Shown here one piece after another: positions 4,922 to 35,116 of a stretch of 64,000 nucleotides of DNA; within the stretch, counting starts at the first letter, position 1; each line of letters begins with the position of its first letter. Source of the DNA: a virus. Where the stretch lies: positions 177,649 through 241,648 of IMG/VR virus record IMGVR_UViG_3300032516_000001. One strand, given 5' to 3'. The position numbers and the translations under genes are program-made. The notes beneath the pieces are model-generated. The model saw nothing but the letters and a program-made list of their open reading frames with translations, had not been told where the DNA came from and did not search any database.

Positions 4922-4938
4922 CGCATGGCCTTCCATCT

Positions 4939-12701: not shown

Positions 12702-12704
12702 GAT

Positions 12705-14796: not shown

Positions 14797-14807
14797 CGCT
14801 ACACCAG

Positions 14808-15647
14808 TTACGGAACGAGCCCATACAAGGAAAAGTCCATGTGTGAACCAGGGTCGGACTTGAGGCTGGACTGGTAGTTGACGGAAAAGCGCTCCCCGGC
14901 CGGTACATCGCAGGGGTATAGCGGCGTGACCTGTGGGAAGACTTTGTACTGATACTGTGCGTGCACGCCGTAGAGGTTTGGTGCCAATATGCGCTCAGAG
15001 CCAGACCCTCCAGTTTCTATGTCGATGCAGAGTTTGTTCATTGTGCCGCTAGCGTCGTAATCGGGCCCAATGACCGCAAAGATTGCTCCAACTCTAGCGC
15101 TGCTGCTTGAGATGATCTGAACCCTCGTGCGCGTGTTAGCGGCAGACACATCGCACGAAACCCCCTGACATGTACTGTCTGGAGTAAATAGTGTGACACA
15201 CCTAGAGAAGCCCGGCACCCCCATGTAGTTAGAGCTGAAGCCCTGTATTGTCACATCGACAATCGTGTTAGTGCCAGCAGAAGACAGCGCCCTCGCAGCC
15301 AAAAGAGAGCCCTTCGGAATGTGAAGTGGCAAGGGAATGTGCACGACGCTCTCCTGGTCATTCGGGTAGGAAAATGGCAAGTGCAGGTCCGGGGCTATGA
15401 TGAAATAGGTAGAGGAGCCATCATAGATGCCAATGTCTACCAAGAAGTCGACATCCGAGATGTCGTAGTTCAGCAGCTCCACAACTAGCAGCTCGTACGT
15501 AAAGGTAGTAGACGCAATGAGCGTGTTCCACGATCCCTTGATTAGCCCACCGGAGTAGCCAGCAGAGCACCCAAAGCCCCGCGTACCCGATTGCACTGCC
15601 GAGGCTTCGCAGCGTACGCCATGACTCTGATGATACTGAAGTGGCAT
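14808..15647 (-). CDS. Virion-type protein, paralogue A of a tandem pair
   Basis: 280 residues from the ATG at 15647. The open frame extends to 15671, but the start at 15647 (MPLQYHQSHG) matches the paralogue's start exactly and overlaps the upstream stop codon by one base (TGATG), the usual coupling arrangement here. Shared blocks with 13963-14796 include KGSWN, PLHIPKG, QGFSSNYMGVPGFSRC, RVQIISSSS and the ending SLYGLVP. Tandem duplication is clear; function is unknown, probably virion structural. Confidence 0.7.
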   Translation of the reverse strand: MPLQYHQSHGVRCEASAVQSGTRGFGCSAGYSGGLIKGSWNTLIASTTFTYELLVVELLNYDISDVDFLVDIGIYDGSSTYFIIAPDLHLPFSYPNDQESVVHIPLPLHIPKGSLLAARALSSAGTNTIVDVTIQGFSSNYMGVPGFSRCVTLFTPDSTCQGVSCDVSAANTRTRVQIISSSSARVGAIFAVIGPDYDASGTMNKLCIDIETGGSGSERILAPNLYGVHAQYQYKVFPQVTPLYPCDVPAGERFSVNYQSSLKSDPGSHMDFSLYGLVP

Positions 15648-15985
15648 CACTGCACCTGATAGACAGCCCACGGAAAAGCACGACCAGTTCCCTGTGTCTG
15701 CTTCAACGTGTAGCGCGTATAGTGTGGAGAGACCCTAGGAGTCGTCTCGAATAACGTCTCTGTCTGCGCACCTACTATGGTGTAGGTTTTCAGCAAACGC
15801 TCTGTGTCACTACTACGCGCCTTGCCGTACTCACGCAGCTCCAAAATGTCTGGGGTACTCCCACCGGTCATGTTCGCAGTGTCGACGGCAAGACAGTAGA
15901 CGTTTGCCGCAGAAATCGAAGCCAGCCCATGCTCTGTCGTGACTGTCGCCGTTTGACTTCCTGATGTGTAGACAGCTAAGGTCAT
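15647..15985 (-). CDS. Small virion-associated hypothetical protein
   Basis: 112 residues, start ATG with a clear AGGAG Shine-Dalgarno 8 bp upstream. Sequence is beta-rich and lacks transmembrane segments or catalytic motifs (start MTLAVYTSGSQTATV). Its TGA overlaps the ATG of the next gene by one base, so it is translated with the paralogue pair. Small proteins of this kind in fibre clusters can be connectors or assembly partners, but nothing in the sequence proves a role. Confidence 0.62.
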   Translation of the reverse strand: MTLAVYTSGSQTATVTTEHGLASISAANVYCLAVDTANMTGGSTPDILELREYGKARSSDTERLLKTYTIVGAQTETLFETTPRVSPHYTRYTLKQTQGTGRAFPWAVYQVQ

Positions 15986-16005
15986 TACTCACTCCTGTTG
16001 CAGGC

Positions 16006-18123
16006 TCAGCCCCCAAAGTTGACGTGTATGGTATGTGCAATGGAAACGGGTACTCCAACCGCCTGCGTGATGTTGATGTTGGTAAGGGTAGACGAGACAG
16101 TGTGGATTCCGGCGTCAACCACCATAGGTAACGTCGCAATGGTCTGGCTCGTGTACGCCAGTACCCCGTTCCGGTAGTACGACACTATTCCGTGCGAGGT
16201 CACCGCGATCTTGAACACGTCGTCAACGGAGAACCCCTCAGTGATGACCGCCACATAGGCCCCGTTCTCAATGATATAAGCGGAGTCCTCGTACAGGTAG
16301 ACCCCGTACTGGTAGTTGACCTGTGTAAATTCCTGATCACCGTGGTACGTGTTCAGACCGCATACCTTGTACTTGCTGACACCGTTCTCCGAGGTCTTGA
16401 ACTCCACGTAACCGCCATTGGAAGAGATCGTCTGTTTCGAGGTAGCCCCACAAGCCCATGGCTCGTACCCACCGACCTTCGTCATCCCATGCGCGGTGGT
16501 CGCTACTCCGACGATGTTTCTCCAATGCGCATTTTCACCGCGGGTAAGGACCGAGTCTGTAACAACAACCGCATTGGCGTCGGAACCGCTTACCGTGATG
16601 GCTGAGAAGCCGCGCGTGTTGTCGTAAATTTGGAAGCAGACGATGAGGCGCCCGGTTGATGACGTCGTGCTGGTGTAGACCAGCCCGCCATCCTTGTAAT
16701 ACCGGACCGTCGTACCAACACGCGCGATCTTGAACACGCTGGAGTTGGCCACGTAGGCAGGCCAACTAGAACCCGGATCGTGATAGGTACCGTTCTCCTT
16801 TACCTCATACGCAGGGGTCACTGCATTGGAACAGCAGATGGAGTAATTGAGGTAGTCGGCGGCCAACCCCTCGCCATCCGCGAGCCCAACGTTGCCAGCC
16901 ATCTCGAACAGGCTGGCCTTAAACTCCACATACCCATCACCATTGATGACGCCCAGCACGTAACCGCCAACGTAAACGCCATTGTTGGCCAGGTTCCTGG
17001 TGATGCTGGTTGCTGTAGTTGTGCAGTTAGCAACGTCATACCAGAACGTGTTAGTGTCAGCAACGTCTACCGTCTTAGTGATGGCAACATCAGAGACCGT
17101 CGAAGCTGTACTATAGCCCGAGTACGTGACCTTTAGAGGTGCGGCAACATATGCTTTAACGAGGCTGGTATACTTGACAACATTATCTATTGAGTAGGTA
17201 ACGACACCTCGTCTGACCTGAATACGAAACAGTGAGGCATTAGTGACTACTCCGTAGTCAGGTGTAGAGGAGAAGGGGTACTCATAGAGAAACGCTTTGG
17301 GGGTACCATCAAGAATGGAGTACCAGTTAAAATAACCACCGAACACATACGTCTCATACACTGCGGAGGAATACCCAAGACCAACCATTGCATTGTAGCC
17401 GACCCAAGCATCAAACGTAAATTCGACGAAGCCGTCTGCTTCGATGGTGCTTCGCGACCGCGCCATCGTACCTTCCCAGCCAGCACCAGGCAGTGTACGA
17501 AGCAATGATCTTTGGTCGGCATACAACCTGGCACCGTGGATATCCTCCCATATCTGAGTAGACAGCGCTACATCTATGCTTTCTGCTGCGATAAGACCAG
17601 GCGTGTTGTAAAGAGCGATGTTATTAAACCAACCAGTGTTCGTATAGAAGTCCATAATAATGTTCAGAGGACGGACGAGTGCGTCATGAACGCTTGTATA
17701 GATCAATGCGCCATCTTTGTAGTAACGGACTAGATTGCCATCTATCGCTATCTTCCAAACAGTGGAGGTCGTATAACTGGAATCAATGATGCTGTATCCG
17801 GTCTTGCCACCCCCCCACTCCCAGGCGTAGACGTTGCCGCTACCATTAAAATACAGACCGAAGTTTACGTTGTACGGAGTACCAGTGGTCCAAGTCGAGT
17901 TATACAACCCGCAGACCATCTGCTTACCAGTCATCGCTGTGAAGGTCAGATAGCCATTGTTATCGATATGTCCAGTAGATGAGCAACCGGCATCCCACGC
18001 GCCACCACCGCTATTTCTTGCTACGTAGGTCTGGGAATCGATGTTGACGTTGGCATTGTATCCCCAGTTAGGTGTTTGCTGAACCGGGGTAGAGCTGGTA
18101 GGGTCGTTAACTGAAACGTTCAT
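16006..18123 (-). CDS. Large fibre protein with four concanavalin/LamG-like domains
   Basis: 705 residues from the ATG at 18123, which has GGAG 8 bp upstream; the longer frame to 18174 is disfavoured. Four repeats of ~165 residues each run from NGYLTFT/DGYVEF through a GL(Y/G) segment to an 'xVxRYYKDGxLIYTS' motif. The four versions are LVRYYKDGALIYTS, VVTYSIDNVVKYTS, TVRYYKDGGLVYTS and IVSYYRNGVLAYTS. This beta-sandwich type occurs in bacterial surface adhesins and is often carbohydrate-binding (family knowledge). A single copy is present in 12705-13946. The gene overlaps its upstream neighbour by 17 bp. Probably a multivalent adhesin or receptor-binding fibre. Confidence 0.75.
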   Translation of the reverse strand: MNVSVNDPTSSTPVQQTPNWGYNANVNIDSQTYVARNSGGGAWDAGCSSTGHIDNNGYLTFTAMTGKQMVCGLYNSTWTTGTPYNVNFGLYFNGSGNVYAWEWGGGKTGYSIIDSSYTTSTVWKIAIDGNLVRYYKDGALIYTSVHDALVRPLNIIMDFYTNTGWFNNIALYNTPGLIAAESIDVALSTQIWEDIHGARLYADQRSLLRTLPGAGWEGTMARSRSTIEADGFVEFTFDAWVGYNAMVGLGYSSAVYETYVFGGYFNWYSILDGTPKAFLYEYPFSSTPDYGVVTNASLFRIQVRRGVVTYSIDNVVKYTSLVKAYVAAPLKVTYSGYSTASTVSDVAITKTVDVADTNTFWYDVANCTTTATSITRNLANNGVYVGGYVLGVINGDGYVEFKASLFEMAGNVGLADGEGLAADYLNYSICCSNAVTPAYEVKENGTYHDPGSSWPAYVANSSVFKIARVGTTVRYYKDGGLVYTSTTSSTGRLIVCFQIYDNTRGFSAITVSGSDANAVVVTDSVLTRGENAHWRNIVGVATTAHGMTKVGGYEPWACGATSKQTISSNGGYVEFKTSENGVSKYKVCGLNTYHGDQEFTQVNYQYGVYLYEDSAYIIENGAYVAVITEGFSVDDVFKIAVTSHGIVSYYRNGVLAYTSQTIATLPMVVDAGIHTVSSTLTNINITQAVGVPVSIAHTIHVNFGG

Positions 18124-18655
18124 AGGTGAGACTCCATGGGCCGGACGTGACATCATCAGCTTCATTAACTTCAAGCGTCATCTGCTGGTTGTCATAAGTG
18201 GAGTTGTTATAGACGGCTACCAACACCTCCCACATATCTGTGGCAGCACCAGCAGACCAACTTACACTTCCTGTTGACGCAACCTTGATACCGGTCCCTG
18301 TAAAGTTGGTCTGCGAATCTGTTTTTGTTTCCAAGTCTGCACTTGTTGAAACCCTGGCAAAATGACCGGCGGCATCATCTATGGTTTTAACTCCGTAGCG
18401 GATATCTGAACCAGCTGCGATACAGTCTAATTGAGCAGTATACGTACCAGTTGCCCACGCCGCATCCCCTACACCACCAGTTGGCCCTGTAAAGCAAAAC
18501 CCCAGTACCGAATCGCCTGGCCCTGGGTAATAGTTAATAAGGCCAGTGACTAAATTGCCCGCAGCACTTGTAGTTGTTAAGACGGCAGTGTTGCCACTTC
18601 TTGCGCTATGAACAGATGTTCCCGCGGCAGTGTTTGACAGGTAAAGATTACCCAT
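18107..18655 (-). CDS. Fibre-module protein with shared N-terminal domain
   Basis: 182 residues. Its start (MGNLYLSNTAAGTSVHS) aligns with the N-terminal domain of the protein at 10764-12701 (MAKTLYLKNAAASGSTF), followed by a beta-rich region. No repeats follow, so it may be a free-standing version of that attachment domain. It overlaps the start of the four-domain lectin-like protein by 17 bp, consistent with coupled expression. No catalytic motif. Confidence 0.65.
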   Translation of the reverse strand: MGNLYLSNTAAGTSVHSARSGNTAVLTTTSAAGNLVTGLINYYPGPGDSVLGFCFTGPTGGVGDAAWATGTYTAQLDCIAAGSDIRYGVKTIDDAAGHFARVSTSADLETKTDSQTNFTGTGIKVASTGSVSWSAGAATDMWEVLVAVYNNSTYDNQQMTLEVNEADDVTSGPWSLTYERFS

Positions 18656-18657
18656 GA

Positions 18658-19233
18658 CTAGCTTCTCACTTTGCCATCACGCAGACGGTCAACCGAAATG
18701 CCTTCAGTCCACTCGCGCCAACCGTGCAGAGTTTGGGCATCATGGTACTGCTTGTCCACTTCATCCTGTGTTCTGGTATACCCATTACCGCACGGAATGT
18801 GCCCGTGTCTCACCTTGTTATCATTGGGCTCTTTCCATTTCACCCGCTCATGCACAGTTGTGTTCTCGGTGTCCAGATACATAGCGTGATGCCTTGAACC
18901 AGCATCGGCATAGACCACACGACTCTGGCGCGTGTTGTATTTCCCGCCCACTTTGGGATCTGGGGCTAGGGGCAAGAACTGCCAAGTCACGGGGTCAATC
19001 TCAGGATCATCGTGCCAAGTAGTGATCCGACACCCTCGTCCAGCAATGGGCTCTACATGGCAGTGGTCAAATCCACTGAATTCAACACCTTGGATGTTCA
19101 CTGCCGCGATGAGTCCCGGACTGTCATCGATGGCAGACCCGTGATCCTTCTTGGCAAGCTTGTGCCAATCTTCACTGTCGACTTCTACCCAGTCCTCGGG
19201 GTTACTCTTGGCCCATTGCACTAGAATCTTCAT
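18658..19233 (-). CDS. Hypothetical phage protein
   Basis: 191 residues, ATG with AGGAG Shine-Dalgarno, ending 2 bp before the next ATG. Starts MKILVQWAKSNPEDWVEVD and is rich in Trp, His and Asp. The N-terminal MKILVQWAx(N)PxDW pattern resembles small proteins found near fibre genes in other large phages, but I do not recognise a named family. No signal peptide or membrane segment. Unknown function within the fibre operon. Confidence 0.62.
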   Translation of the reverse strand: MKILVQWAKSNPEDWVEVDSEDWHKLAKKDHGSAIDDSPGLIAAVNIQGVEFSGFDHCHVEPIAGRGCRITTWHDDPEIDPVTWQFLPLAPDPKVGGKYNTRQSRVVYADAGSRHHAMYLDTENTTVHERVKWKEPNDNKVRHGHIPCGNGYTRTQDEVDKQYHDAQTLHGWREWTEGISVDRLRDGKVRS

Positions 19234-19329
19234 GGTCCGCTCCTATACCCCAGATACATATAATCCGACACCCTCTGGGAGAGACCCGATGATGCCGGAC
19301 TTACGCCGTCCGGAGAAGACCGACCGGAC

Positions 19330-19647
19330 TCAGTTGAGCTTTGGAGGCTCGATGACGAAACGGCAGTCTCCTCGCGAACAGATGCGTGCACCATTGTGGT
19401 GCTCCTTCGTCTCCTTCCCGCATATGGGACATGGGTGACGAGCATTAATCATAATTTCTGGAGTCATTGCTGCTTGCTCGACACGCTTACGACATGTCCC
19501 ATTGGAACAAATGCGCCAGCCAAGTTGCTGATCCTCCTTCATAGCCGAACCACACCCAGGACATTTGTAGACTTTAATGCCGGGGTTGCTAGTTGAAACA
19601 ACTAGCACATGATCCGAAGAATCAATCGTATCTTTCAGAAAAGCCAT
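19330..19647 (-). CDS. Double zinc-ribbon protein
   Basis: 105 residues with two Cys4-type ribbons: CPGCGSAM...CSNGTC (about residues 34-54) and CPICGKETKEH...CSRGDC (about 73-96). ATG preceded by GGAGACTACCA. Probably a small metal-binding structural or regulatory protein; no fused catalytic domain. The 96 bp between it and the next gene (19234-19329) contain no convincing coding sequence. Confidence 0.68.
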   Translation of the reverse strand: MAFLKDTIDSSDHVLVVSTSNPGIKVYKCPGCGSAMKEDQQLGWRICSNGTCRKRVEQAAMTPEIMINARHPCPICGKETKEHHNGARICSRGDCRFVIEPPKLN

Positions 19648-19673
19648 TGGTAGTCTCCTATTTAGTCTTCGGG

Positions 19674-20183
19674 TTACGTAATACGAATACGGTAAGAAAT
19701 CTTCAGCTTATCTGCCTTCGTCTTCGCGACGGCGGTGTATACACATCGCATCATTGCTGTGCCACCGGGGCTGGTATGCTGACAAAGTAATACCACCTCC
19801 TTGGCTGCGGCAAATGACAGGATACCACCTGTAGTGGTACCAGCTCCGGATGGGTAGCTATTGATATACAAAAATGTCTGGCCCGTCGACATGGTTTTAC
19901 TATCAACCGTGTTTAGAGAGCCGCCTATAGGTGTCTGTACGTTGACGTTAGCCCCAGTTGCCGCTGCACTACCAGAACCAATACGCATCTGATCGAACAC
20001 TGTAGATTTGTGTCCAGATACTAGTTCCCAGATGTGCTTTTTACCGCAAGTTACCACAAGATTGTGTGATACTACACGCTTAGTACGTACAGGGCCATGC
20101 TTACCATCCCGCCAAACCTCAACTTCCACATAACCCCCAGCTCCAACATTATCAACTCTGTTTCGATTCTGCCGATTTTCCAT
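19674..20183 (-). CDS. Virion-type hypothetical protein
   Basis: 169 residues from the ATG at 20183, which has a GGAGAAGG Shine-Dalgarno; the open frame reaches 20303 but that start lies deep inside the upstream gene. The gene overlaps the preceding methyltransferase-glycosyltransferase gene by about 30 bp. Sequence GYVEVEVWRDGKHGPVRTKRV, a central Gly/Ser-rich stretch and repeated beta-strand patterns fit a small tail or neck protein. Unrecognised family. Confidence 0.62.
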   Translation of the reverse strand: MENRQNRNRVDNVGAGGYVEVEVWRDGKHGPVRTKRVVSHNLVVTCGKKHIWELVSGHKSTVFDQMRIGSGSAAATGANVNVQTPIGGSLNTVDSKTMSTGQTFLYINSYPSGAGTTTGGILSFAAAKEVVLLCQHTSPGGTAMMRCVYTAVAKTKADKLKISYRIRIT

Positions 20184-22029
20184 TTGCCTTCTCCAATCGT
20201 TCAATGTTACCACGAATCTCCGACAGTATTTTTTCAGATGCCCCTGCTGGAAGTAATTCCTCAACTCGTCTGGCCCAGTATAATGCCTTATCATATTCAC
20301 CAAGTTCAGTATAACATTCAGCCAGTTTCATCGCCGGTAAATAAGTATATGAGTCAAGATCAATCCACCACAGTGTAAACGGCATGTTACCAATTCGAGT
20401 TGATGCATACAAAAAAAACTGAATAGCTTGTTCCCAATTCTTCTCCTCTATAGCAATATCTCCAAGCCACATCCAGTGCTCAATACGGGTCCAATCTTCT
20501 TGCGAGCCTCCATACAACGTGACTTTTGCCTCTTCAAGACGTCCAAGTTTGGCATATTCTTTAGCAAGCAATAGACGCGTGTGATAGCGCATAATACCAT
20601 TATGATTCACAGCTAGAAATTCTAAAAAACGCTCAATGGCCTTCTCAGGATTAAAATCCCGCGTCTCCGAACCAAGATAGTGTAATGAGGTTTGATTTTC
20701 TTCAACGAGCCAATCACGTAATAACGTATATCGGTTCTGCTTAGCCCGCTGGTCTCTACGCTCCAATGCGCGCTTATGAACGCGTCTATGACTTGTTATG
20801 ACTTGAGGCATCTTTACACATAATTCATTGGTTGGCATGTCAAGAATATTGTGAGTGCTACGCTTAAACCGAAGGTCTGAGTGACGCCTGAAAAGCCATG
20901 GAAACGCCCATTGATCGCCTTGACCTTGACGTAATACATAACCAACTCTAGATGCTTTTGGCATTACTTTGTCTAGGTATAAAAGAGCATCTATACCAGC
21001 AGCCAAAGACTCATGAGCCTCTGTCATAAAGATCCAATCACCAACACAATGATCGATACACTGATTTCGAATATGAGCGAAATGGACACCACCGGATGGA
21101 ACACGATCATTAGACGGACCCTCAGGGTTCTCTAGATAGAACCACTTCTCAGCGTATTTTTCCACAATCTCGACAGTATTATCTTTAGTACGTGGATCGA
21201 TACCAACGACAATTTCATCAGCAATACCACGGAAACTAGCAAGCGTCTCACCAATATCAGCAGCTTCATCCCTAGCTGGAAACGTGACAGACAACTTATA
21301 TGGTTTATGAGCAACCTGACCAGCGATTCCAATCATGAATGGTCCTAAGACTTCGACCCGAGCATCTTCACCAAACGTTTCACGAAGTTCGTTCAGGAAC
21401 TCTAAAGCTGTCCACCTGATAGTGTGCTCAGACTCTTCTTCTGGTCCTAGACGATCATGAGGCACTGAGGCGATCAAACCTAGAGCCTGGCTATTAGCCA
21501 TCCTATAAATTCTTCTACGGGTACTCCAGGATAAATGCTCTAATACTTCGGTGCTAACCAATAAGTGCTCCTCAATCGACTTAAAGGCCTCATCTATATT
21601 AGACCACTGTTCCAAATGCACCTTCTTGGCTTCCAGGCCCCTATCTATAGCTGCCTTGATAGCTGTATCATTATGTTCCCATATGCAGACACTACATCCT
21701 TTTTGCTCTTTAAGACGTTGTCCAAGGATGCCAACACCGCCACCAAAGTCTACGACTTTCAAACCGGGCGGAACAAGTTCAAGAATCCGTTTATAAACTG
21801 GGTCCAGTTTTTTCTCACGCCATTCAGCCTGGATTTGATTTTTCCAACATTCATTCCAGTGATCTGGAGTATTGTTGGCAACATTTGCTGGAACCCACCT
21901 ACAATCTCCGAATGGTGGTTGTAATGTGTTGACTTCGCCAGCGGGGACAAACCCATGCGGAGTTTGCAAAATCTGCATGGTTGTATCTTCGTAGGAACGA
22001 CCGAACGATGTTGCGTCAAATTGTTTCAT
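20152..22029 (-). CDS. Methyltransferase–GT2–TPR fusion, coupled to the collagen gene
   Basis: 625 residues. Residues ~70-200 form a class I SAM methyltransferase (VVDFGGGVGILGQRL, then VSTEVLEHLSW). Residues ~245-430 form a GT2 glycosyltransferase (KLSVTFPARDEAADIGETL, DEIVVGIDPRTKDNTVEI). Residues ~440-610 are TPR-like repeats (LLAKEYAKLGRLEEAKVTL, WLGDIAIEEKNWEQAIQFF, LAECYTELGEYDKALYWA). The ATG lies only 6 bp after the stop of the giant collagen-like gene, the only sugar enzyme placed inside the fibre block. Its best supported role is glycosylation (and sugar methylation) of the collagen-like chain, with the TPR region as acceptor clamp. Domains are seen; the acceptor is inferred. Confidence 0.87.
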   Translation of the reverse strand: MKQFDATSFGRSYEDTTMQILQTPHGFVPAGEVNTLQPPFGDCRWVPANVANNTPDHWNECWKNQIQAEWREKKLDPVYKRILELVPPGLKVVDFGGGVGILGQRLKEQKGCSVCIWEHNDTAIKAAIDRGLEAKKVHLEQWSNIDEAFKSIEEHLLVSTEVLEHLSWSTRRRIYRMANSQALGLIASVPHDRLGPEEESEHTIRWTALEFLNELRETFGEDARVEVLGPFMIGIAGQVAHKPYKLSVTFPARDEAADIGETLASFRGIADEIVVGIDPRTKDNTVEIVEKYAEKWFYLENPEGPSNDRVPSGGVHFAHIRNQCIDHCVGDWIFMTEAHESLAAGIDALLYLDKVMPKASRVGYVLRQGQGDQWAFPWLFRRHSDLRFKRSTHNILDMPTNELCVKMPQVITSHRRVHKRALERRDQRAKQNRYTLLRDWLVEENQTSLHYLGSETRDFNPEKAIERFLEFLAVNHNGIMRYHTRLLLAKEYAKLGRLEEAKVTLYGGSQEDWTRIEHWMWLGDIAIEEKNWEQAIQFFLYASTRIGNMPFTLWWIDLDSYTYLPAMKLAECYTELGEYDKALYWARRVEELLPAGASEKILSEIRGNIERLEKANGKSAESKQS

Positions 22030-22035
22030 AATATC

Positions 22036-25000
22036 CTACGTTACCACTATTTCCGCATTGTCACATACGCAAGCATCGGTAGATGAAGCACCCTGTTTGA
22101 GTTGGACCTCATATGTTTTATTAGCATTTGGAAGATCGGACCCAGCGGCAAGAACAACAGTCGAAACTTCTGGCTGCAAAGACACACTTGCAGCCAATGG
22201 ATCCGTATTGACCACCACACTATCTGTTTGATTATATAAACGAAGCGTCGATGTGATACCTGCATTTGCTGTACGAAGTATGCAACGAAATGTAAATGTG
22301 GATCCTGAATACAACGAGGCATCAAATGTATTAACACCAATTATTTGATATCCAGTACTCCCATTTACGATCGTGGTGCCAGCAACAAACATGCATACTG
22401 AATCCCCAACGGCGCCCTGCGGACCAGTAGCACCAGTAACTCCAGGTGACCCCTGTGGACCAGTTGCACCGGTAATTCCGGGTGATCCTTGATTCCCTTG
22501 TGGCCCTGTGGCCCCCGTTACACCAGGAGATCCTTGGTCGCCCTGAGGGCCAGTGGCCCCGGTGACGCCGGGTGAACCTTGTGGCCCAGTCGCTCCGGTA
22601 ATTCCGGTAATTCCGGTAATTCCGGGTGAACCTTGATTCCCTTGCGGTCCAGTAACACCGGTAACTCCAGTAATTCCTGGTGATCCCTGGCCACCTTGCG
22701 GGCCAGTAGCGCCAGTAACTCCAGTTACACCCGGTGATCCTTGCGGTCCGGTCGCGCCAGTAACGCCCGTTATGCCCGGTGATCCTTGATCTCCTTGGGG
22801 TCCAGTTGCACCAGTAACTCCAGTGACCCCAGGAGACCCTTGATCACCTTGAGGGCCAGTCGCTCCTGTAACCCCAGTAACACCGGGACTTCCTTGTGGA
22901 CCAGTTGGTCCTGTTACACCAGTGACTCCAGGTGAACCCTGATCCCCTTGCGGTCCAGTGGCTCCTGTTACTCCAGGACTCCCTTGCGGACCAGTTGGTC
23001 CTGTGGCACCTGTAACCCCCGGAGACCCTTGTGGACCAGTTGCGCCAGTTACACCCGTTATACCGGGGCTTCCTTGAGGCCCGGTTGCGCCAGTTACACC
23101 CGTTATACCGGGGCTTCCTTGATCTCCTTGTGGTCCAGTAGCACCAGTTACTCCCTGTGGACCCGTTGGACCAGTAGCGCCTGTAGCTCCATCAGGACCA
23201 GTAGCACCAGTGACTCCGGGACTGCCTTGTGGCCCGGTGGGTCCTGTTGTACCAGTAATTCCAGGCGATCCTTGAGGGCCGGTTGGTCCTGTGGCACCTG
23301 TAACTCCGGGCGATCCTTGCGGTCCTGTAGGACCAGTCGCTCCAGTGACTCCGTCCGGTCCTGTTGCACCAGTGACTCCAGGAGATCCTTGCGGACCCGT
23401 GGGACCTGTCGCTCCGGTAGCTCCCTGTGGACCGGTAGCTCCTGTGACTCCAGGCGATCCTTGTGGTCCTGTAACTCCGGTAACTCCATCAGGACCTATG
23501 GGACCTGTAGCACCAGTTACTCCTTGCGGTCCAGTGGGACCAGTAGCCCCTGTAGCTCCATCTGGACCAGTAGCGCCCGTTACTCCCGGTGATCCTTGTG
23601 GTCCAGTCGGACCCGTCGCTCCTGTAACTCCGGGCGATCCCTGTGGACCAGTAGGACCTGTAACGCCTGTTACTCCAGTAGCTCCTCGCGGTCCAGTCGG
23701 ACCTGTGAATCCAGTGACACCAGGACTTCCTTGTGGTGCAGATACAGCCAATGTAGTTAGTATATGACTAGCATTAGCTGTTCCTTGATAATGCCAATGT
23801 GCTACACGTGCTGACGGACTCGCATTAAACGCTAATACGCGAACTAATATGCGATCAGTTGTACCAAGTGGGATATCACTAATAATTGTATGTTCGAGAT
23901 TATTGTAAACCGGTGACATGCTTGTAATATCAGATGTTGCCGCTGTTGTAAATAAAACAGTCTCGACACCAGCAACAGATTTAACGACTTGATACTTGTA
24001 TGTGCAAGTTCCGCCAGAGACGCTAAACCAAGAATGGAATTCCCATGTGCCAGCAGGGATACTTGAACCAGGAACTAATGCTAGTGTTGCATAAGTGTCT
24101 AACGCAACTCCTGCCGTATCATTACTTTCTACTATTACTGTTTCGTCAACAGGGGTCCCGCTAACTGGAACTCGAGTTAACTTCTCGTTATTTATTGATA
24201 ATGTAATCGATGGACCGGCACCTTGTTCTGTAAGTGCTACGAATGTAGCTAATGTCAGGTCTGACGCTGTGACTGCAGTGATGGGATAAGTTCCATCATT
24301 TAGTCCGCTAGTCGATCCAACGACTTTGACTTTCTGTCCAACTAAATAATTGTCAGCTGTAAAACTACCAGAATCACGATGAATGGTATCGGGATTTGTG
24401 TTAGCGAAAGAAATACCCGTCGAAGTTATCGTCGGAGTAATAATATCTGAAGTTATATTATCATACCAAAGTATCAACCCGGCGTTGACACCAACTGGTC
24501 CTTGAGCACCCGTTGGACCCGTCGCTCCAGTAGCCCCTTGTGGACCAGTTGCTCCAGTGACTCCAGTAGCCCCTTGCGGACCTGTAGCTCCTGTGACCCC
24601 AGTGACTCCGGGAGATCCTTGCGGACCAGTTGGTCCAGTAACGCCCGTAATTCCAGGACCCGTGGCGCCTGTGACTCCAGGCGATCCTTGCGGACCTGTA
24701 GCTCCGGTGACGCCTGTTACTCCCGGTGATCCTTGCGGTCCAGTCGGACCAGTAGCTCCCGTAGTTCCATCAGGTCCAGTTGCTCCTGTGACACCAGGTG
24801 ATCCTTGTGGACCAGTAGGACCTGTGGCTCCTGTAATACCAGGCGAACCCTGTGGTCCAGTAGCTCCTGTTACACCAGGTGATCCTTGCGGCCCAGTCGG
24901 TCCCGTTGCACCGGTCACTCCATCGGGACCAGTGGCTCCCGTAATCCCAGGTGATCCTTGCGGTCCAGTGGCGCCGGTAACCCCATCAGGCCCTGTAACT

Positions 25001-28000
25001 CCAGTTACGCCTGGTGACCCCTGTGGACCAGTTGCGCCTGTAACTCCGGTAACGCCCGGCGACCCTTGTGGGCCCGTTGCCCCAGTAACTCCATCAGGTC
25101 CTGTTGCGCCTGTAACCCCTGGTGATCCTTGTGAACCGGTAGCACCAGTGACGCCTGGTGATCCTTGCGGACCCGTGGGACCTGTTGCTCCGGTAGCCCC
25201 GTCAGGTCCAGTAGCTCCCGTAACACCAGGACTTCCCTGAGGACCTGTGGCTCCTGTAACTCCATCAGGCCCTGTAGCACCAGTGACGCCTGGTGATCCT
25301 TGTGGACCAGTAGCCCCTGTAACTCCATCAGGTCCAGTCGCGCCAGTGACACCAGGACTCCCTTGCGGTCCGGTTGCTCCTGTTACTCCGTCTGGACCAG
25401 TGGCTCCCGTTACTCCTGGTGAACCCTGTGGACCAGTAGCTCCGGTAACGCCGGGTGATCCTTGGGGGCCAGTTGGTCCAGTGGCTCCTGTTACTCCAGG
25501 ACTTCCCTGTGGCCCAGTTGCTCCTGTAACACCATCAGGTCCTGTTACTCCAGTAGCACCAGGACTCCCTTGCGGTCCGGTGGCACCAGTTGCACCGGGA
25601 GATCCTTGCGGACCAGTAGCACCCGTAACTCCGTCAGGACCAGTAGCACCAGTAACCCCTGGGGATCCCTGTGGCCCTGTAGCTCCTGTAACACCAGTAA
25701 TGCCTGGTGAACCCTGCGGGCCAGTAGCCCCTGTGACACCCGGAGAACCTTGAGGACCAGTGGCTCCTGTTACTCCATCAGGCCCCGTAACCCCTGGTGA
25801 TCCTTGAAGGCCTGTAGCACCATCAGGTCCTGTAGCGCCCGTAACACCAGGAGAACCCTGTGACCCTGTCGCACCAGTAACGCCTGGCGATCCTTGTGGA
25901 CCGGTAGCACCAGTTACTCCATCTGGTCCTGTAGCTCCAGTTACTCCGTCAGATCCAGTCGCACCTTGCGGACCGGTGGCGCCCGTCGCGCCTGGGGATC
26001 CTTGTGGACCAGTAGCACCAGTTGCTCCATCGGGGCCAGTAGCACCGGTTACTCCGGGAGATCCTTGTGGACCAGTTGCGCCATTTGGTCCTGTAGCACC
26101 CGTGATCCCGGGTGATCCTTGAGGCCCTGTCGCACCAGTGACTCCAGGAGATCCTTGTGGACCAGTAGCTCCTGTTACTCCGTCAATACCTGTCGCGCCT
26201 TGTGGACCGGTAGCTCCTGTGACCCCATCCGGACCGGTGGCCCCGGTTGCTCCCTGTGGGCCGGTTGGACCCGTTGCTCCAGTTATTCCCGGAGACCCTT
26301 GTGGTCCTGTAAATCCAGTTACTCCAGGACTTCCTTGATCACCCTGAGGGCCAGTAGCACCAGTTGCGCCCTGCGGACCGGTAGCACCTGTTGCTCCGGT
26401 TACGCCATCAACACCCGTTGCACCCTGCGGACCAGTGGCTCCGGTAACCCCGGTTATGCCTGGGGACCCCTGATCACCTTGAGACCCAGTAACACCAGTT
26501 ACACCAGGGCTGCCCTGATCACCCTGAGGACCAGTTGCACCAGTGACCCCGGTTATACCTGGTGATCCTTGATCTCCCTGCGGACCTGTCGCCCCAGTTA
26601 CACCCGTTACGCCCGGAGACCCTTGATCTCCTTGCGGACCAGTGGGTCCAGTAGCACCAGTGACGCCTGTTATTCCGGGGCTACCTTGCTCCCCTTGCGG
26701 ACCCGTAGCACCGGTAGCACCAGTAACTCCCGGACTTCCTTGCGGGCCCGTAACTCCCGTTACACCAGGCGACCCTTGGGGACCAGTAACGCCCGTCGAA
26801 CCCTGTGGTCCTGTAGCCCCCGTAACACCATCTGATCCGGTAGCTCCAGTTACACCATCAGAACCGGTAGCGCCTTGAGGCCCTGTCGCTCCAGTTATGC
26901 CCGGGGGTCCCTGAGGGCCTGTGGGACCAGTCGCCCCTTGTGGACCTGTGGCGCCGGTTACACCGTCGACACCCGTGGCGCCCTGCGGACCGGTAGCACC
27001 TGTAATTCCAGGACTACCCTGCGGACCAGTCGCTCCGGTTACTCCATCGACGCCAGTGGCGCCTTGTGGACCGGTCGCTCCGGTTACTCCATCAACACCT
27101 GTCGCGCCTTGAGGACCGGTTGCTCCAGTAACCCCATCAGGGCCAGTGACTCCGGGTGACCCTTGTGGACCAGTAGCTCCTGTAACTCCAGTTACACCAG
27201 GACTTCCCTGAGGTCCGGTAGTACCAGTAACCCCGTTAGGACCAGTCGCACCAGTTACGCCATCAACACCTGTTGCACCTTGTGGACCTGTTGCGCCGGT
27301 TGCTCCGTCAGGACCAGTCGCTCCTGTAACTCCAGGCGATCCCTGTGGGCCAGTAGCGCCCTGCGGACCGGTTGGTCCTGTTGCACCAGTTACACCTGGT
27401 GACCCCTGCGGACCGGTTGGTCCTGTTGCTCCAGTTACACCATCGGGACCTGTTGCCCCGGTGGCGCCTTGTGGCCCGGTAGCTCCAGTGACACCATCAA
27501 GTCCGGTGGCGCCTTGTGGCCCGGTAGCTCCAGTAACGCCAGGTGACCCCTGCGGCCCCGTTGCACCGTCAGGACCCGTAACTCCTGTTACACCAGGGGA
27601 TCCCTGTGGGCCTGTTGCTCCTGTAACTCCAGGACTACCCTGTGGGCCCGTAGCACCAGTAACACCTTGAAGCCCCGTAGCACCAGTAACACCGTTTGGT
27701 CCTGTGGCTCCAGTTACACCAGGAGATCCTTGAGGTCCCGTGGCGCCGGTTACTCCGTCTGGACCAGTCGCACCTGTAACCCCGGGTGATCCCTGCGGGC
27801 CAGTGGAACCAGTAGCACCGTTAGAACCAGTAGCTCCTGTTACTCCATCAAGTCCGGTAGCACCTTGAGGTCCAGTTGGTCCGGTAGCGCCTGTGACACC
27901 ATCAGGCCCAGTAACACCAGTTACACCGGGTGACCCCTGTGGACCAGTGGCGCCGGTTACTCCAGGACTTCCTTGCGGACCAGTGGCACCAGTTACACCC

Positions 28001-31000
28001 TGAGGCCCGGTAGCCCCGGTTACACCATCGGGACCAGTAACGCCTGGAGAACCCTGTGGGCCTGTCGCACCTGTAACACCTGGCGATCCCTGTGGACCAG
28101 TGGTTCCTGTAACCCCAGGCGATCCCTGTGGACCTGTAGCTCCAGTAACGCCATCGACTCCAGTTGCGCCCTGTGGGCCGGTCGGTCCGGTGGCTCCTGT
28201 CGCGCCATCAGGACCTGTCGCCCCAGTGACACCGGGTGAACCTTGAGCACCAGTTGATCCTGTTACACCTGGTGATCCTTGCGGACCTGTTGCGCCAGTG
28301 ACTCCATCTACGCCCGTTGCGCCTCGAGGCCCGGTCGCACCAGTAGCACCATCTATACCAGTGGCACCTTGTGATCCAGTCGCTCCCGTTACACCATCGA
28401 TCCCGGTCGCGCCTTGCGGACCAGTGGCTCCCGTAACACCTGGAGAACCTTGTGAACCCGTAGCTCCGGTTGCACCATCGGGACCCGTAGCACCGGTAAC
28501 ACCAGGAGATCCCTGTGATCCAGTTGCCCCTGTGACACCGGTTACTCCGTCAATACCAGTTGCGCCTTGCGGACCAGTGGCACCAGTTACTCCATCAGGA
28601 CCGGTGGCACCGGTAACGCCGTCAACGCCCGTCGCGCCTTGAGGACCAGTCGGTCCGGTGACACCAGTTACGCCGTCAATGCCCGTCGCGCCTTGCGGGC
28701 CGGTGGCTCCAGTAACCCCAGTTATTCCAGGACTTCCTTGAGGCCCTGTGGTTCCAGTTACTCCAGGCGATCCCTGTGGACCAGTAGCACCAGTGACCCC
28801 ATCGGGTCCAGTAGCACCGGTAACGCCTGGAGAACCCTGTGGTCCAGTCGCTCCCGTAACTCCATTAAGACCAGTAGCGCCTTGTGGGCCCGTAGCACCG
28901 GTAACACCTGGAGACCCTTGCGGACCCGTTGCGCCCGTGACGCCATCTGGTCCAGTAACACCCGTAACTCCAGGAGATCCCTGGGAACCAGTAGCACCGG
29001 TCACTCCGTCTACGCCGGTAGCACCTTGCGGACCAGTTGGCCCCGTAGCACCGGTAACACCATCAGGTCCAGTGGCTCCCGTTACTCCAGTGGCGCCCTG
29101 AGAACCCGTAGCACCGGTAACACCAGGGCTGCCTTGCGGACCAGTGGCGCCAGTGGCGCCGTCCGGACCCGTTGCTCCTGTAACACCGTCAGGTCCTGTT
29201 GCGCCAGTGACTCCAGGCGATCCTTGTGGACCGGTAATGCCGGTTACACCGGGGCTTCCTTGATCACCCTGCGGTCCGGTAGCACCGGTTACACCTGGTG
29301 AGCCTTGTGGACCAGTAGCACCCGTTACTCCGTCAGGACCTGTAAATCCTGTGACTCCGGGGCTTCCCTGCGGACCGGTTGCTCCAGTTACACCGTTGAC
29401 ACCAGTTGCGCCCTGCGGACCAGTAGCGCCAGTGGCTCCATCAGGACCGGTAGCACCAGTTACTCCAGGTGATCCCTGCGGACCAGTTGCTCCTGTAACA
29501 CCGGTTACCCCAGGACTTCCCTGTGGTCCGGTTGCGCCAGTAATCCCATCAATACCCGTAGCGCCTTGGGGGCCAGTCGCACCTGTAACTCCGTCAGGAC
29601 CTGTGGCTCCGGTTACGCCCGGTGACCCCTGCGGACCAGTAGCTCCTGTTGCTCCATCCGGACCGGTGGCCCCTGTGACCCCATCAGGCCCCGTAGCACC
29701 AGTGACACCTGGAGAACCTTGTGATCCAGTCGCTCCAGTTGCCCCATCTGGTCCTGTCGCACCAGTTACGCCGTCAATTCCGGTCGCACCTTGTGGACCT
29801 GTTGTCCCAGTAACCCCATCAGGTCCCGTAGCTCCAGTAACTCCGGGTGATCCTTGAGGACCAGTGGCTCCTGTTGCGCCGTCTGGTCCAGTAGCACCGG
29901 TAACCCCCGGGGATCCCTGCGGACCAGTAGCACCGGTTACTCCATCAGGCCCAGTAGCGCCAGTAACGCCGTCAATTCCAGTGGCGCCCCGTGGACCAGT
30001 AGCACCGGTTACTCCATCAACACCTGTAGCACCCCGGGGGCCGGTCGCTCCTGTAGTTCCATCAGGACCTGTAGCACCGGTAACCCCGGGTGAACCTTGT
30101 GGACCGGTTGCTCCTGTAGTCCCATCGGGACCAGTAGCGCCAGTTACTCCATCAGGACCAGTAGCACCAGTAGCGCCGTCAGGGCCGGTAGCCCCTGTGA
30201 CTCCCGGAGACCCTTGCGGACCTGTAGCACCGGTAACCCCGTCAATGCCCGTAGCGCCTTGTGGGCCCGTAGCACCGGTAACTCCATCAGAACCGGTAGC
30301 ACCTCGGGGTCCTGTCGCTCCAATTACACCATCAGGGCCGGTTGCACCAGTTACTCCGGGAGACCCTTGGGGGCCAGTCGGCCCTGTCGCCCCAGTTACT
30401 CCATCAACACCCGTCGCACCTTGTGGGCCTGTTGCCCCAGTAGCGCCATCAGGACCAGTGGCACCAGTGACTCCTGGACTTCCCTGCGGACCCGTAGCAC
30501 CAGTTGCACCGTCAGGTCCCGTAGCACCAGTTGCACCGTCAGGTCCCGTAGCACCTGTAACGCCTGGTGAACCCTGCGGACCCGTTGCGCCAGTAACACC
30601 GTCGATACCAGTCGCACCCTGCGGCCCAATGGGACCGGTGGCTCCTGTGACACCATCTATGCCAGTCGCACCCCGAGGTCCTGTAGCACCAGTAACACCA
30701 TCGATCCCGGTCGCACCTTGAGGACCGGTGGGTCCGGTAGCGCCAGTTACTCCGTCTGGTCCAGTTGCGCCAGTAACTCCTGGCGATCCTTGCGGACCGG
30801 TGGCACCAGTAAGGCCGTCAGGTCCTGTGGCTCCAGTTACACCAGGTGATCCTTGCGGACCAGTGGGGCCAGTTGCCCCAGTTACTCCGTCATGACCAGT
30901 TGCGCCAGTAACCCCAGGTGAACCTTGAGGTCCTGTGGCGCCAGTTACTCCATCAATTCCGGTGACGCCTTGCGGACCTGTCGTCCCAGTTACACCCGGA

Positions 31001-33918
31001 GAACCCTGCGGGCCTGTTGCACCGGTTGCACCATCAGGCCCGGTTGCTCCTGTTACTCCTGGAGATCCCTGGGGACCAGTTGGTCCAGTGGCACCAGTAA
31101 CTCCATCAATACCCGTCGCGCCTTGCGGACCAGTAGCACCGGTTACTCCGTCGGGTCCAATAGCCCCTTGCGGACCGGTCGTTCCTGTTACTCCATCAGG
31201 TCCTGTGGCACCAGTAACTCCGGGTGATCCTTGGGGACCGGTAGCGCCAGTGACTCCAGGTGATCCTTGAGGGCCAGTAGCACCGGTTACTCCGTCGGGC
31301 CCCGTAGCACCTTGTGGACCAGTTGCTCCTGTAACACCATCAGGACCTGTGGCGCCGGTTACTCCCGGAGATCCTTGTGGACCGGTCGCGCCTGTTACTC
31401 CATCAGGCCCTGTTGCTCCCGTAACCCCAGGCGATCCCTGTGGACCAGTAGCACCAGTGACCCCATCGGGTCCAGTAGCACCGGTAATACCAGGTGATCC
31501 TTGATTCCCTTGTGGGCCAGTCGCTCCCGTAACTCCCGGTGAACCTTGTGGACCTGTAACACCAGTAACGCCTGGTGATCCTTGATCTCCTTGTTGCCCT
31601 GTAGGACCGACTGGTCCCGTAGAACCAGTGCCGACACCCGGTGGTCCTTGTGGCCCAGTTGCTCCGGTGACTCCTGGTGAACCCTGATCACCTTGGGGAC
31701 CTGTAGCGCCAACAATTCCTGGTGATCCTTGATCTCCTTGGGAACCCGTAGGACCGGTAGCACCCGTTACGCCAGTGATTCCTGGTGAACCTTGAAGTCC
31801 AGTAACTCCTGGCGAGCCTTGGTCACCCTGTGGTCCAGTAGGCCCGGTAGCCCCAGTGACTCCTTGTGGCCCAGTTGCTCCTGTTGGTCCAACAGGCCCT
31901 GTAGAACCAGTTCCAACTCCTTGCGGCCCTTGGGGACCTGTGGCACCAGTAACACCCGGTGGCCCTTGATCTCCTTGAAGACCAGTAACCCCGGGCAATC
32001 CCTGATCTCCCTGTGGACCAGTAGGTCCGGTAGATCCAGTAACTCCGGGTGATCCTTGTTCTCCCTGTGGACCTGTAGGGCCAGTTACTCCTGGCGATCC
32101 TTGCGGTCCGGTAACGCCAGGCGATCCTTGTATTCCTTGAGGACCAGTAACTCCTGGCGATCCCTGTGGACCAGTTGTTCCTTGCGGTCCAGTAGGTCCA
32201 GTTGGACCAGTAGCTCCTTGATGCCCTACGGGTCCAGGTAACCCAGTAGCTCCTCTAGGACCAGGAACGCCTTGTACACCCTGAGGACCGGTCGGTCCCG
32301 TCGAACCGATAGGTCCAGTTGGACCGGTAGCTCCTGTTATCCCAGGAGATCCTTGTGTTCCCTGAGGCCCTGTAGCTCCTTGCGGCCCTGTGGGACCTGT
32401 GGCTCCTGTAACTCCTTGGAGTCCTGTAAATCCAGGAGACCCTTGAGTTCCTTGTGGACCTGTCGAACCAGTTACACCAGGTGATCCTTGAACGCCTTGT
32501 AACCCAGTCGCACCAGTGACACCGGGTGATCCTTGAATTCCTTGTGGTCCAGTAATGCCCTGCAGTCCTATAGAACCAGTTGGACCAGTTGCGCCGGTAA
32601 CACCAGGTGATCCTTGAATTCCTTGTAATCCAGTAACGCCCTGGACGCCGGTAGACCCTTGAGGTCCAGTAACGCCTGTAATACCTTGTGGACCTGTTGG
32701 ACCGGTAGCTCCCTGAGGTCCTGTTGGACCGGTAGCTCCCTGAGGTCCTGTTGGACCTGTAACCCCTCGCGGGCCATTATCCCCCTGAGGACCAGTGGCT
32801 CCTTGTGGACCTGTGGGTCCGGTTGGACCAGTCGATCCAGTTACTCCCTGTGGACCTGTAACCCCCTGTGGACCTGTAACTCCTTGTGGTCCGATATCCC
32901 CTTGTGGACCTGTGGGGCCGGTCGGACCCTGAATACCGGCTGGACCGGTTACTCCTTGCGCTCCCGTGGCCCCGAGAGGGCCTTGAACACCAGTTGCCCC
33001 CTGAGGACCCGTTACCCCTGGAGAACCCTGTGGACCTGTCGTCCCAGGGCTTCCTTGGGGTCCTGTAACCCCAGTAGCTCCACGTAATCCGGTAGCTCCC
33101 TGAGGCCCAGTCGGGCCAGTATCTCCTTGATGTCCTATGGGTCCTGGTAATCCAGTAGCTCCCCTTGGTCCAGGAATGCCCTGCACTCCTTGGGGACCTG
33201 TTGGGCCTGTGGCCCCTGTTGGACCAGTGGCTCCTGTGGGACCAGGAAGTCCAGTGGCCCCTCTAGGCCCAGTTATGCCTGGACCGGTTACTCCTTGGGG
33301 ACCAGTTGGACCAGTGGCTCCTGTTACCCCAGGAGATCCTTGGATACCTTGAATGCCTGCGGGCCCGATAGCTCCTGTTGGACCAGTGACACCAGTGATT
33401 CCATGTGCCCCGGTCGGCCCGATAGACCCTGTTGAACCAACGGGACCAATTGGACCAGTGGCGCCTGTGATACCAGGTGATCCTTGTGCACCGGTAGCTC
33501 CGGTAACCCCTGGAGATCCTATTATGCCTTGGGGACCAGTAGCTCCCTGTGGTCCTATAGCTCCCGTAGTTCCAATAGGACCGGTTGGACCTGTAACCCC
33601 TTGTATGCCTGTTAGACCAACTGGTCCTGTAGGACCAATTGGCCCAGTAACACCAGGGCTACCTTGGATACCCTGCGGGCCAATTGGCCCGATAGATCCA
33701 GTAGCTCCTGCCGGTCCCGTTAATCCAACCGGACCTGTTAAACCAGGACTTCCCTGAATACCCTGTGGACCTGTAGCCCCGGCAGTGCCTGCAGAACCAG
33801 TGGGCCCAATCGGACCAGTGACCCCCTGCGGACCAGTTGGACCTGTCGGCCCTGGCGGTCCAGTTGCTCCTGTCGCGGATCTCAGTCCGCGTGGGTTTCC
33901 ACAATTCTGCTGGGACAT
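22036..33918 (-). CDS. Giant collagen-like fibre protein (3,960 residues)
   Basis: An 11.9-kb gene. After a short head ([17 protein letters not shown]), nearly the whole chain is perfect Gly-X-Y triplets, roughly 1,190 of them. The usual units are [12 protein letters not shown] and GATGPDGVT, with Thr dominating the Y position and Pro frequent. A non-collagen beta-rich insert of about 250 residues lies near residues 3143-3394. The C-terminal ~125 residues (from about 3835) are globular and probably trimerise the chain. Collagen-like trimers occur in phage tail fibres, BclA of Bacillus spores and giant-virus fibrils (family knowledge). There is no prolyl hydroxylase nearby, and stability may instead come from Thr glycosylation. 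Unit lengths vary in multiples of nine bases, so recombination has kept the frame. Confidence 0.93.
23740..24490 (-). other. Non-collagenous insert domain inside the collagen-like protein
   Basis: About 250 residues of non-Gly-X-Y sequence between two collagen stretches of the giant fibre gene. It opens [17 protein letters not shown] and ends [14 protein letters not shown]. It is rich in Thr, Val and Ser with a predicted jelly-roll-like beta pattern. It may be a second trimerisation or receptor-binding head, a hinge, or a relic of fusion between two collagen genes. Boundaries are approximate. Confidence 0.8.
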
Positions 33919-33919
33919 A

Positions 33920-35116
33920 TTAACTTGCAGCAGTTAGAGTAATTCCCACAGAACCTGGAGCCCCGGGCTGCCCTTTTTCAGCTACTATGAGCCTGGCTGT
34001 TAAAGCTCCTCCTGGCACACAGATGTGAATAATTGAATTCACTGGTGCATTTGAATCTGGAATTGGTCCAGCTAAATCTTGCAAATACATGTTTTGAGTG
34101 GCGGTTGGATCCGATACCGTATAGTTAAAATCTATCATAGTTTCTTGTGATTCTTCCACGCCATTGCCCCAAAGAAGCTTGAATTCCGGATAACCATCTG
34201 CTATCCCTCTTACATATGTTATGTAAAAAGTTAGTTGTCTGATTCGTTCTGGAATTACATAGAATGGTTGGTTGGTCCAACCTCCACCAGCTGGAAGCAC
34301 TTGAGTTGCTAAGTGAACAACTCTCGGAATTTCATATGGACAACACTGATTCATGGGCGGTACTGGCGGGATTGGAACATAAATGACGGTGCATGGAATA
34401 CTGCACGTTGAAGAAGAACATGATGTACAACATGCCAACGCATTCGAGACCGTGGCCGACCTACATACCAATCCAGAGGTATTAATAACCGAAAAAGGCA
34501 TGGATTTAGCCTCAATCGGTGAATCAGCTTGTTCCATGTATTCCCAAGTAATGATATAATCGCCACCAATCATATTAACCGATAAATAAGCATAATATTC
34601 ACCAACACCGACTCTAACAGCAGCAGTTTTTGCTGTTACAGCAGTCCCCAAAGCATCATATATGGTCCAAAAGACACTAAATGGATCTATTGGCAACCCG
34701 TCATCATTTTTAACATAGAGTGGTAAATCACCTGGTCCCAGAAGAGCTCCACGTAAATACGAAAACTCTCCGGCTAATGGTATTCCATCGGCCGTTATCG
34801 GACCGCAAGAGCTATAACTCGATGGATTTACTACGAAGAATTGTTCAGTATCAACTGAAATTTGGTCGCCAGATTCGTCCTGCCACTGCCATTGAATGAA
34901 ATAATTTCCTGTTTTATCAGTCACACTCCATGGAGCATAATATTCACCCGTATTAGCTTTGATGGCGCACAAATTTTTTCCGGATATTTGTGCGCCATCC
35001 GAAGCATAAACTGTCCATCTAACATCAAAAGCGTCCTGAGGGTAACCGTTTGGATTAGTTAAGTATAATCGCAGGTCCCCTTCAGATAGCTTTGTCTGGG
35101 CTGAAAAAGCTGGCAT
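33920..35116 (-). CDS. Virion protein with two Ig-like domains and a Cys-rich hinge
   Basis: 398 residues. Two related beta-sandwich domains: residues ~12-100 ([23 protein letters not shown]...GEYYAPW...GNYFIQWQW) and ~125-215 ([20 protein letters not shown]...GEYYAYL...GDYIITWEY). A Cys-rich hinge around residues 225-260 (CCTSC...CSIPC...QCCP) could form inter-chain disulphides. A C-terminal beta domain ends in [10 protein letters not shown], a short collagen-like tail. The stop lies one base before the collagen gene's ATG. Probably the collar or base to which the collagen-like fibre attaches (inference). Confidence 0.74.

Follow-up and report, generated by a model that had tools for sequence, protein, structure and literature searches.

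A giant Thr-rich collagen gene

The final 64 kb of a 241,648-bp virus record (IMG/VR record IMGVR_UViG_3300032516_000001, positions 177,649 to 241,648) were analysed. This stretch of 64,000 nucleotides, here called the window, contains a giant gene for a collagen-like protein together with a conserved glycosyltransferase (GT) gene and a cassette of genes for sugar and methyl transfer, all on the same strand (Table 1; coordinates are those of the window unless a record or locus is named). The collagen open reading frame (ORF) has an ATG start and no internal stops, and encodes 1,189 Gly-X-Y triplets in runs of 66, 151, 31, 775, 18 and 148 triplets, the chain being broken or ended by two globular segments (aa 3146-3396 and aa 3841-3960). 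An earlier note on this DNA had described a 3,960-residue Gly-X-Y protein with mostly Thr at the Y position, a description borne out by the intact ORF and by the Y-position composition (Thr 54.7%, Gln 20.7%, Pro 12%, Asp 7.7%, Ser 1, Lys 0; n=1,189). Homologous collagens at the same position in relatives are 2,424 aa (in a 436-kb relative) and at least 2,079 aa in length, and the presence of such long collagens in the same place makes it unlikely that the length of 3,960 aa is an assembly artefact. Based on the canonical collagen rise of approximately 0.29 nm per residue, the chain would be predicted to extend for about 1 µm.

Matches to the Pfam Collagen family (PF01391) above the cut-off were found in 115 stretches of the record, within the giant ORF and three other ORFs. 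Three further collagen genes of the same phage lie at record positions 78363-79394, 93222-98132 and 136025-136597, and their Y positions are likewise rich in Thr; a 1,636-aa collagen among them is found within a conserved structural block common to the 436-kb relative.

The major capsid protein encoded in the window is 77% identical to that of LR745208.1 (an uncultured phage of 485 kb), 45% identical to that of the cultured jumbo phage Tunturi_5, and 36% identical to that of the Bacillus phage G. This relationship places the virus among the tailed jumbo phages; judged by its capsid sequence, it is a member of the jumbo group of phage G and Tunturi_5.

Table 1. Features of the 64-kb window, in order of position.
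Feature	Coordinates	Strand	Basis
GT2-GT4 double-headed glycosyltransferase, runs off the window edge	2-1465	-	Pfam
GDP-mannose 3,5-epimerase (makes GDP-L-galactose)	1475-2437	-	phmmer
UDP-glucose 6-dehydrogenase-type nucleotide-sugar dehydrogenase	2446-3627	-	Family matches
Two-domain S-adenosylmethionine (SAM) methyltransferase	3629-4936	-	Pfam Methyltransf_23/11, two stretches
FkbM-family methyltransferase	4939-5685	-	Pfam PF05050, NCBIfam TIGR01444
GT2 glycosyltransferase	5700-6788	-	Pfam PF00535, 42.8 bits
FkbM-family methyltransferase	6810-7502	-	Pfam PF05050
FkbM-family methyltransferase	7507-8226	-	Pfam PF05050, NCBIfam TIGR01444
GT2-TPR-GT4 fusion, 826 aa, conserved collagen-linked glycosyltransferase	8235-10715	-	Pfam, motifs, relatives in viral contigs
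Nine structural-looking genes, candidate fibres or decorations, possible acceptors	10764-20303	-	No sugar-enzyme family
P0002, methyltransferase-GT2-TPR fusion, accessory or diverged	20152-22029	-	MetW-like methyltransferase, GT2 and TPR matches
Giant collagen-like protein, 3,960 aa; its Y-position Thr residues are the proposed sites of O-glycans	22036-33918	-	Gly-X-Y repeats, Pfam Collagen
P0003, tandem Ig-like protein, likely fibre partner or virion anchor	33920-35116	-	Directly upstream of collagen; homologues
Major capsid protein	56812-57708	-	phrog_2522; identity to tailed jumbo phage capsids

Architecture of the GT2-TPR-GT4 glycosyltransferase

The GT2-TPR-GT4 enzyme consists of a GT2 domain (aa 1-190), a helical TPR stretch (aa 190-410) and a GT4 domain, and an AlphaFold model has the corresponding succession of GT-A domain, helical TPR stretch and GT-B domain. 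The catalytic motifs of both halves, DGDD for GT-A and EX7E for GT-B, are intact, and D91, D93 and D94 are invariant across six relatives. Designed TPR proteins aside, the nearest solved proteins by sequence in the PDB are the flagellin-modifying GmaR and the peptide S-glycosyltransferase SunS; the fold matches are SunS, SPINDLY and OGT. All four of these enzymes act on protein or peptide.

Conservation of the collagen-glycosyltransferase linkage across phages

Linkage was counted in IMG/VR contigs, 32 of which carry a full-length relative of the GT2-TPR-GT4 enzyme at ≥40% identity. The earlier note had named co-occurrence of collagen and glycosyltransferase genes in related phages as a check on its proposal. 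The pairs were present, with order and orientation conserved: a Thr-rich collagen lies upstream of the GT gene on the same strand in 25 of the 32 contigs, downstream in one (which has both) and antisense in none. The collagen was upstream in 19 of the 23 contigs that extend upstream for 8 kb or more, and in 21 of 28 clusters after the relatives were clustered at 70% identity; among full-length relatives of less than 40% identity, it was upstream in only 2 of 13. Our control was the major capsid gene of related phages: of 80 loci around it, 7 have a collagen nearby. We chose this gene over the cassette gene for UDP-glucuronate decarboxylase (UDP-xylose synthase, UXS) because a single-sequence scan with UXS returned only the source contig. 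The p values were 1e-12 (Fisher) and 1e-7 (sign test), both tests ignoring shared ancestry.

Gene order in the 436-kb relative illustrates the arrangement: a P0003 homologue, the Gly-X-Thr collagen and four short genes are followed by a GT2-TPR-methyltransferase-GT4 gene, a short-chain dehydrogenase/reductase (SDR), a GT, UXS, two GT4 genes and a radical-SAM gene. The GT2-TPR-methyltransferase-GT4 protein is 58-60% identical to the enzyme of the window, and its ORF contains the sole GT2 match in that record. In Tunturi_5, a myovirus with a 113-nm head that is grown on Tunturiibacter psychrotolerans X4BP1, the tail fibre gp29 bears a collagen (Thr in 59% of 105 triplets), and the gene for gp35, a GT2-TPR enzyme, lies approximately 3.7 kb away on the opposite strand. 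The paper describing Tunturi_5 names gp35 merely as a glycosyltransferase, with no mention of collagen; the pair is a simpler version of the arrangement found here. Two contigs from one sample, 3300024054_000269 (L036) and 3300024054_000008 (L352), are each of approximately 182 kb and both end in collagen repeat, and may be halves of one genome split within the repeat.

The residue at the Y position was also compared with the presence of the enzyme. Thr makes up 34-67% of Y in ten GT-bearing contigs. In four capsid-related phages that have collagen but no detectable GT2-TPR (the Gordonia phages CherryTomatoes and Skog, Eggerthella LE2-3, and phage G), Thr accounts for 7-12% and Lys for 17-42% of Y.

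Bacterial relatives of the enzyme

The closest 80 bacterial loci, nearly all from Firmicutes, were retrieved by patterns unrelated to collagen, and the top bacterial relatives are 27-35% identical to the phage enzyme. The Firmicute relatives and the phage enzyme have DxDD, YRER and HEV motifs in common. Gly-X-Y density around the bacterial GT genes was 112 bases per kb within 1.5 kb, compared to 15-18 per kb further out, and a collagen was found within 1.5 kb of the GT in 37 of the 80 loci.

Genes flanking the collagen

P0003 is likely to be a fibre partner or virion anchor. Its homologues (34-51% identity) were found in nine other viral contigs, in each of which (9/9) a Gly-X-Thr collagen follows after 31-412 bp; a search with the single sequence had recovered one relative, and a search with a six-row alignment recovered the nine. 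The predicted model is of low confidence (pLDDT 65) and consists of two Ig-like domains and a beta C-terminus. A fold search returned only generic Ig-like matches with low TM-scores, and P0003 matched no Pfam or PHROG family.

On the other side of the collagen, the earlier note had pointed to a methyltransferase-GT2-TPR gene that starts 6 bp after the collagen and had taken it to be the coupled enzyme. The gene is present at this spacing and has the domain matches described (P0002). Its SAM motif (VVDFGGGVG) is intact, but the D-x-D of the GT2 family is replaced by MTEAHE, and searches of viral contigs, phage records and 12 related genomes recovered no full-length homologue. For these two reasons P0002 was rejected as the key collagen enzyme; the conserved partner of the collagen is instead the GT2-TPR-GT4 enzyme.

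A 9.5-kb block of nine genes separates P0002 from the remaining sugar genes. It contains two paralogues that are 49% identical (at 13963 and 14808) and repeat proteins at 16006, 12705 and 10764, the repeats of which resemble one another. No gene of the block matched a Pfam family, and the three large ones matched no PHROG family. The genes between collagen and GT are not conserved from phage to phage.

The sugar and methyl-transfer cassette

The collagen was said in the earlier note to be followed by at least nine sugar-related genes. Nine more genes for sugar or methyl transfer are indeed found on the same strand, but they begin only after the nine-gene block. The individual enzymes that had been named were recovered: a UDP-glucose-dehydrogenase-type enzyme, double-headed glycosyltransferases at both ends of the set, and a GDP-mannose 3,5-epimerase, which scored 313 bits to the plant enzyme 2c59 by phmmer compared to 120 bits for the next family. 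Four of the later cassette genes in the window encode methyltransferases (three FkbM, one two-domain). The GT2-GT4 gene at the edge continues beyond the window as a 701-aa open frame, with the GT4 part in the adjoining locus L018.

Just past the window edge, the genome continues with an intein-interrupted UXS, a sugar C-methyltransferase and a Gfo/Idh oxidoreductase. The SDR conserved in the cassettes of relatives is UXS, with 347 bits compared to 129 for the next family. The UXS intein contains a LAGLIDADG endonuclease (L018:11864-15301, record positions 171864-175301); in the relative L036 an intein is found in the radical-SAM gene of the same cassette instead. Based on these enzyme families, the cassette would supply UDP-glucuronate (UDP-GlcA), UDP-xylose and GDP-L-galactose, and these sugars could reach the collagen. 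The methyltransferases may methylate the collagen itself, as the earlier note supposed, but their substrates could also be sugars or other fibres.

Other features of the window

A long ORF at 59999-64000, adjoining the capsid gene, contains intein-splicing and LAGLIDADG domains and apparently carries two inteins. Many related GIY-YIG homing endonuclease genes are dispersed in the genome (35879-36706, 42052-42912 and 47326-48252 in the window, and others in L011, L012 and L017), one of them near the collagen operon. A 662-aa protein encoded on the plus strand at 43977-45965 contains a peptidoglycan glycosyltransferase (Transgly) domain, which is unusual in a phage; it is kept at 30% identity in the 436-kb relative.

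A proposed collagen glycosylation system

We consider it probable that this tailed jumbo phage O-glycosylates Thr residues of its own fibre collagen by means of a dedicated cassette. The conserved co-occurrence of collagen and GT genes, taken together with the relationship of the enzyme to the bacterial-collagen enzyme family, means that the link between collagen, glycosyltransferase and sugar is well supported. The idea in the earlier note that a phage glycosylates its own collagen thus survives with respect to gene linkage and enzyme family, but not with P0002 as the enzyme.

The sequences themselves show the genes, their order and families, the intact motifs and the conserved linkage; from these we infer the acceptor, the kind of sugar, the stabilising effect and the place in the virion. 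In the mechanism that we propose, the GT2-TPR half of the GT2-TPR-GT4 enzyme would attach the initial sugar to the Y-position Thr of Gly-X-Thr triplets while the TPR solenoid holds the acceptor collagen chain, and the fused GT4 half and other GTs would lengthen this first sugar. The UDP-glucose dehydrogenase, UDP-xylose synthase and GDP-mannose 3,5-epimerase of the phage would provide the activated sugars, and the methyltransferases could cap or modify them. The glycosylated Thr could replace hydroxyproline in its role, stabilising a triple helix of approximately 1 µm. The structural genes nearby suggest that the collagen may form whiskers on the virion. A broader proposal, which we put forward tentatively and with a good deal less conviction, is that a widespread jumbo-phage lineage has µm-long collagen fibres on which Thr bears a phage-made, xylose-/L-galactose-containing and methyl-capped glycan, which takes over helix stabilisation from hydroxyproline and coats the virion with sugar, forming a self-contained viral collagen glycosylation system.

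Several observations weigh against glycosylation of the collagen by this cassette. The GT2-TPR-GT4 and collagen genes of the window are 11 kb apart, albeit in a same-strand block, and in the relative G009 the cassette lies approximately 18 kb from the collagen rather than just downstream. The GT-to-collagen distance inside single genomes gave a combined p of 0.05, which is weak evidence because the collagens are many. In three capsid-related contigs (L263, L264 and L271), Thr fills 67-100% of Y in collagen runs close to the capsid gene, and a GT2-TPR for them was not among the 80 loci listed, a possible exception to the association of Thr with the enzyme. Lastly, the 42.6-kb podovirus ctKR88 (L179, MW202524.1) encodes a GT2-TPR-GT4 homologue (32% identity) beside its major capsid gene, along with methyltransferases but no collagen. 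This set is perhaps a capsid glycosylation system, and a double-headed GT in a phage that lacks collagen makes other virion proteins candidate acceptors.

The ctKR88 gene, which comes after the capsid gene, is one ground for the alternative that the cassette glycosylates other virion proteins, whether the capsid or the short fibre or decoration proteins whose genes lie between those for the collagen and the GT, with the collagen a mere neighbour in a structural module. The nine structural-looking genes between P0002 and the GT are in keeping with this alternative, for which the capsid and tail-tube glycosylation of mycobacteriophages is a precedent (Freeman 2023, as cited in PMC12619734). The intervening genes, however, vary between phages whereas the collagen is the constant upstream partner, the bacterial relatives are likewise adjacent to collagen, and Thr in Y tracks the enzyme; we judge this alternative to be unlikely, though it deserves more weight than the two that follow. 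An action on the host surface, in which O-antigen, capsule or receptor would be remodelled, for instance to prevent superinfection, appears improbable. Surface-polysaccharide clusters typically contain nucleotide-sugar enzymes, FkbM methyltransferases and GT4 enzymes, and some of the GTs weakly match exopolysaccharide families, but the annotated genes of the cassette were found to include no flippase, polymerase, ligase or membrane GT, the genes linked to it are those for collagen and fibre-like proteins, and the GT2-TPR architecture has protein or peptide glycosyltransferases as its best solved and fold matches. Decoration of phage DNA bases with pentose or hexose donors, as in T-even and related phages, has very little to recommend it beyond the supply of UDP-xylose and the existence of phage-encoded DNA glycosyltransferases (cited in PMC12619734), given that the genes seen beside the cassette include none for a base-hydroxymethylating enzyme, that the TPR-GT2 family is protein-directed, and that the linkage is to fibre genes rather than replication genes.

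Glycosylation of the fibre collagen would join three observations, namely the glycosylation of bacterial spore collagens, the Thr-glycosylated collagens that lack hydroxyproline, and the glycosylation of phage virions. The collagen-GT system is lineage-wide and not peculiar to one contig, and it would give a concrete function to the large and so far unexplained sugar clusters of jumbo phages. It also points to new enzymes for glycosylated recombinant collagen, and the cultured relative Tunturi_5 is an available test system. A literature search, with subscription papers and preprints outside its scope, found no description of a phage collagen-glycosylation gene pair. If our proposal is correct, this would be, to our knowledge, the first phage system to produce and activate sugars and to couple them to the phage's own collagen.

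Comparison with known systems

Collagen repeats have been described in structural proteins encoded by prophages of E. coli O157:H7 (PMC3368898) and in gp12 of SPP1 (cited in PMC13212656). These are phage structural proteins with collagen repeats, as is proposed here. Their collagen chains are far shorter than that of the giant collagen, and we know of no glycosylation cassette linked to them. In the mycobacteriophages, GTs encoded by the phage act on proteins of its virion; the acceptor is the capsid or tail tube, with no collagen-GT gene pair described (Freeman 2023, cited in PMC12619734), whereas the acceptor proposed here is a collagen. Mimivirus is a case of one virus encoding both a collagen and its glycosyltransferase, L230, which hydroxylates Lys and glucosylates the hydroxylysine (PMC9614988). 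L230 belongs to another enzyme family, and the absence of Lys from the Y positions means that the hydroxylysine route of animals and mimivirus cannot apply to the phage collagen; we rejected it.

The enzymes that glycosylate the cuticle collagen of Riftia differ from those of the phage. The triple helix of this collagen is reportedly made more stable by Thr residues in Y that carry sugars (Mann 1996, Bann 2000, cited in PMC10141479). As in the phage collagen, Thr rather than hydroxyproline is dominant in the helix-stabilising Y position, which suggests a reason for the Thr dominance seen here; unlike the phage protein, that of Riftia is an animal protein, and its sugar is galactose.

The closest parallel that we drew is with Clostridioides difficile SgtA, a GT2 (aa 1-260) and TPR (aa 262-358) protein encoded beside bclA3, which adds beta-O-GlcNAc to Thr of BclA3 collagen-repeat peptides in vitro (PMC7157674). 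SgtA was compared by its description, and the bacterial relatives of the phage enzyme by sequence. The succession of a GT2 domain with DXD and a TPR domain is found in the GT2-TPR-GT4 enzyme and is lacking in P0002, a linked collagen gene with Thr in its repeats is present in the 25 viral contigs, and the phage enzyme is related in sequence to the collagen-adjacent bacterial enzymes. Unlike SgtA, the phage enzyme is fused to a GT4 domain and often also to a methyltransferase, has a sugar-nucleotide pathway alongside it, and occurs in tailed phages; the sugar it attaches probably also differs from the SgtA case in not being only GlcNAc.
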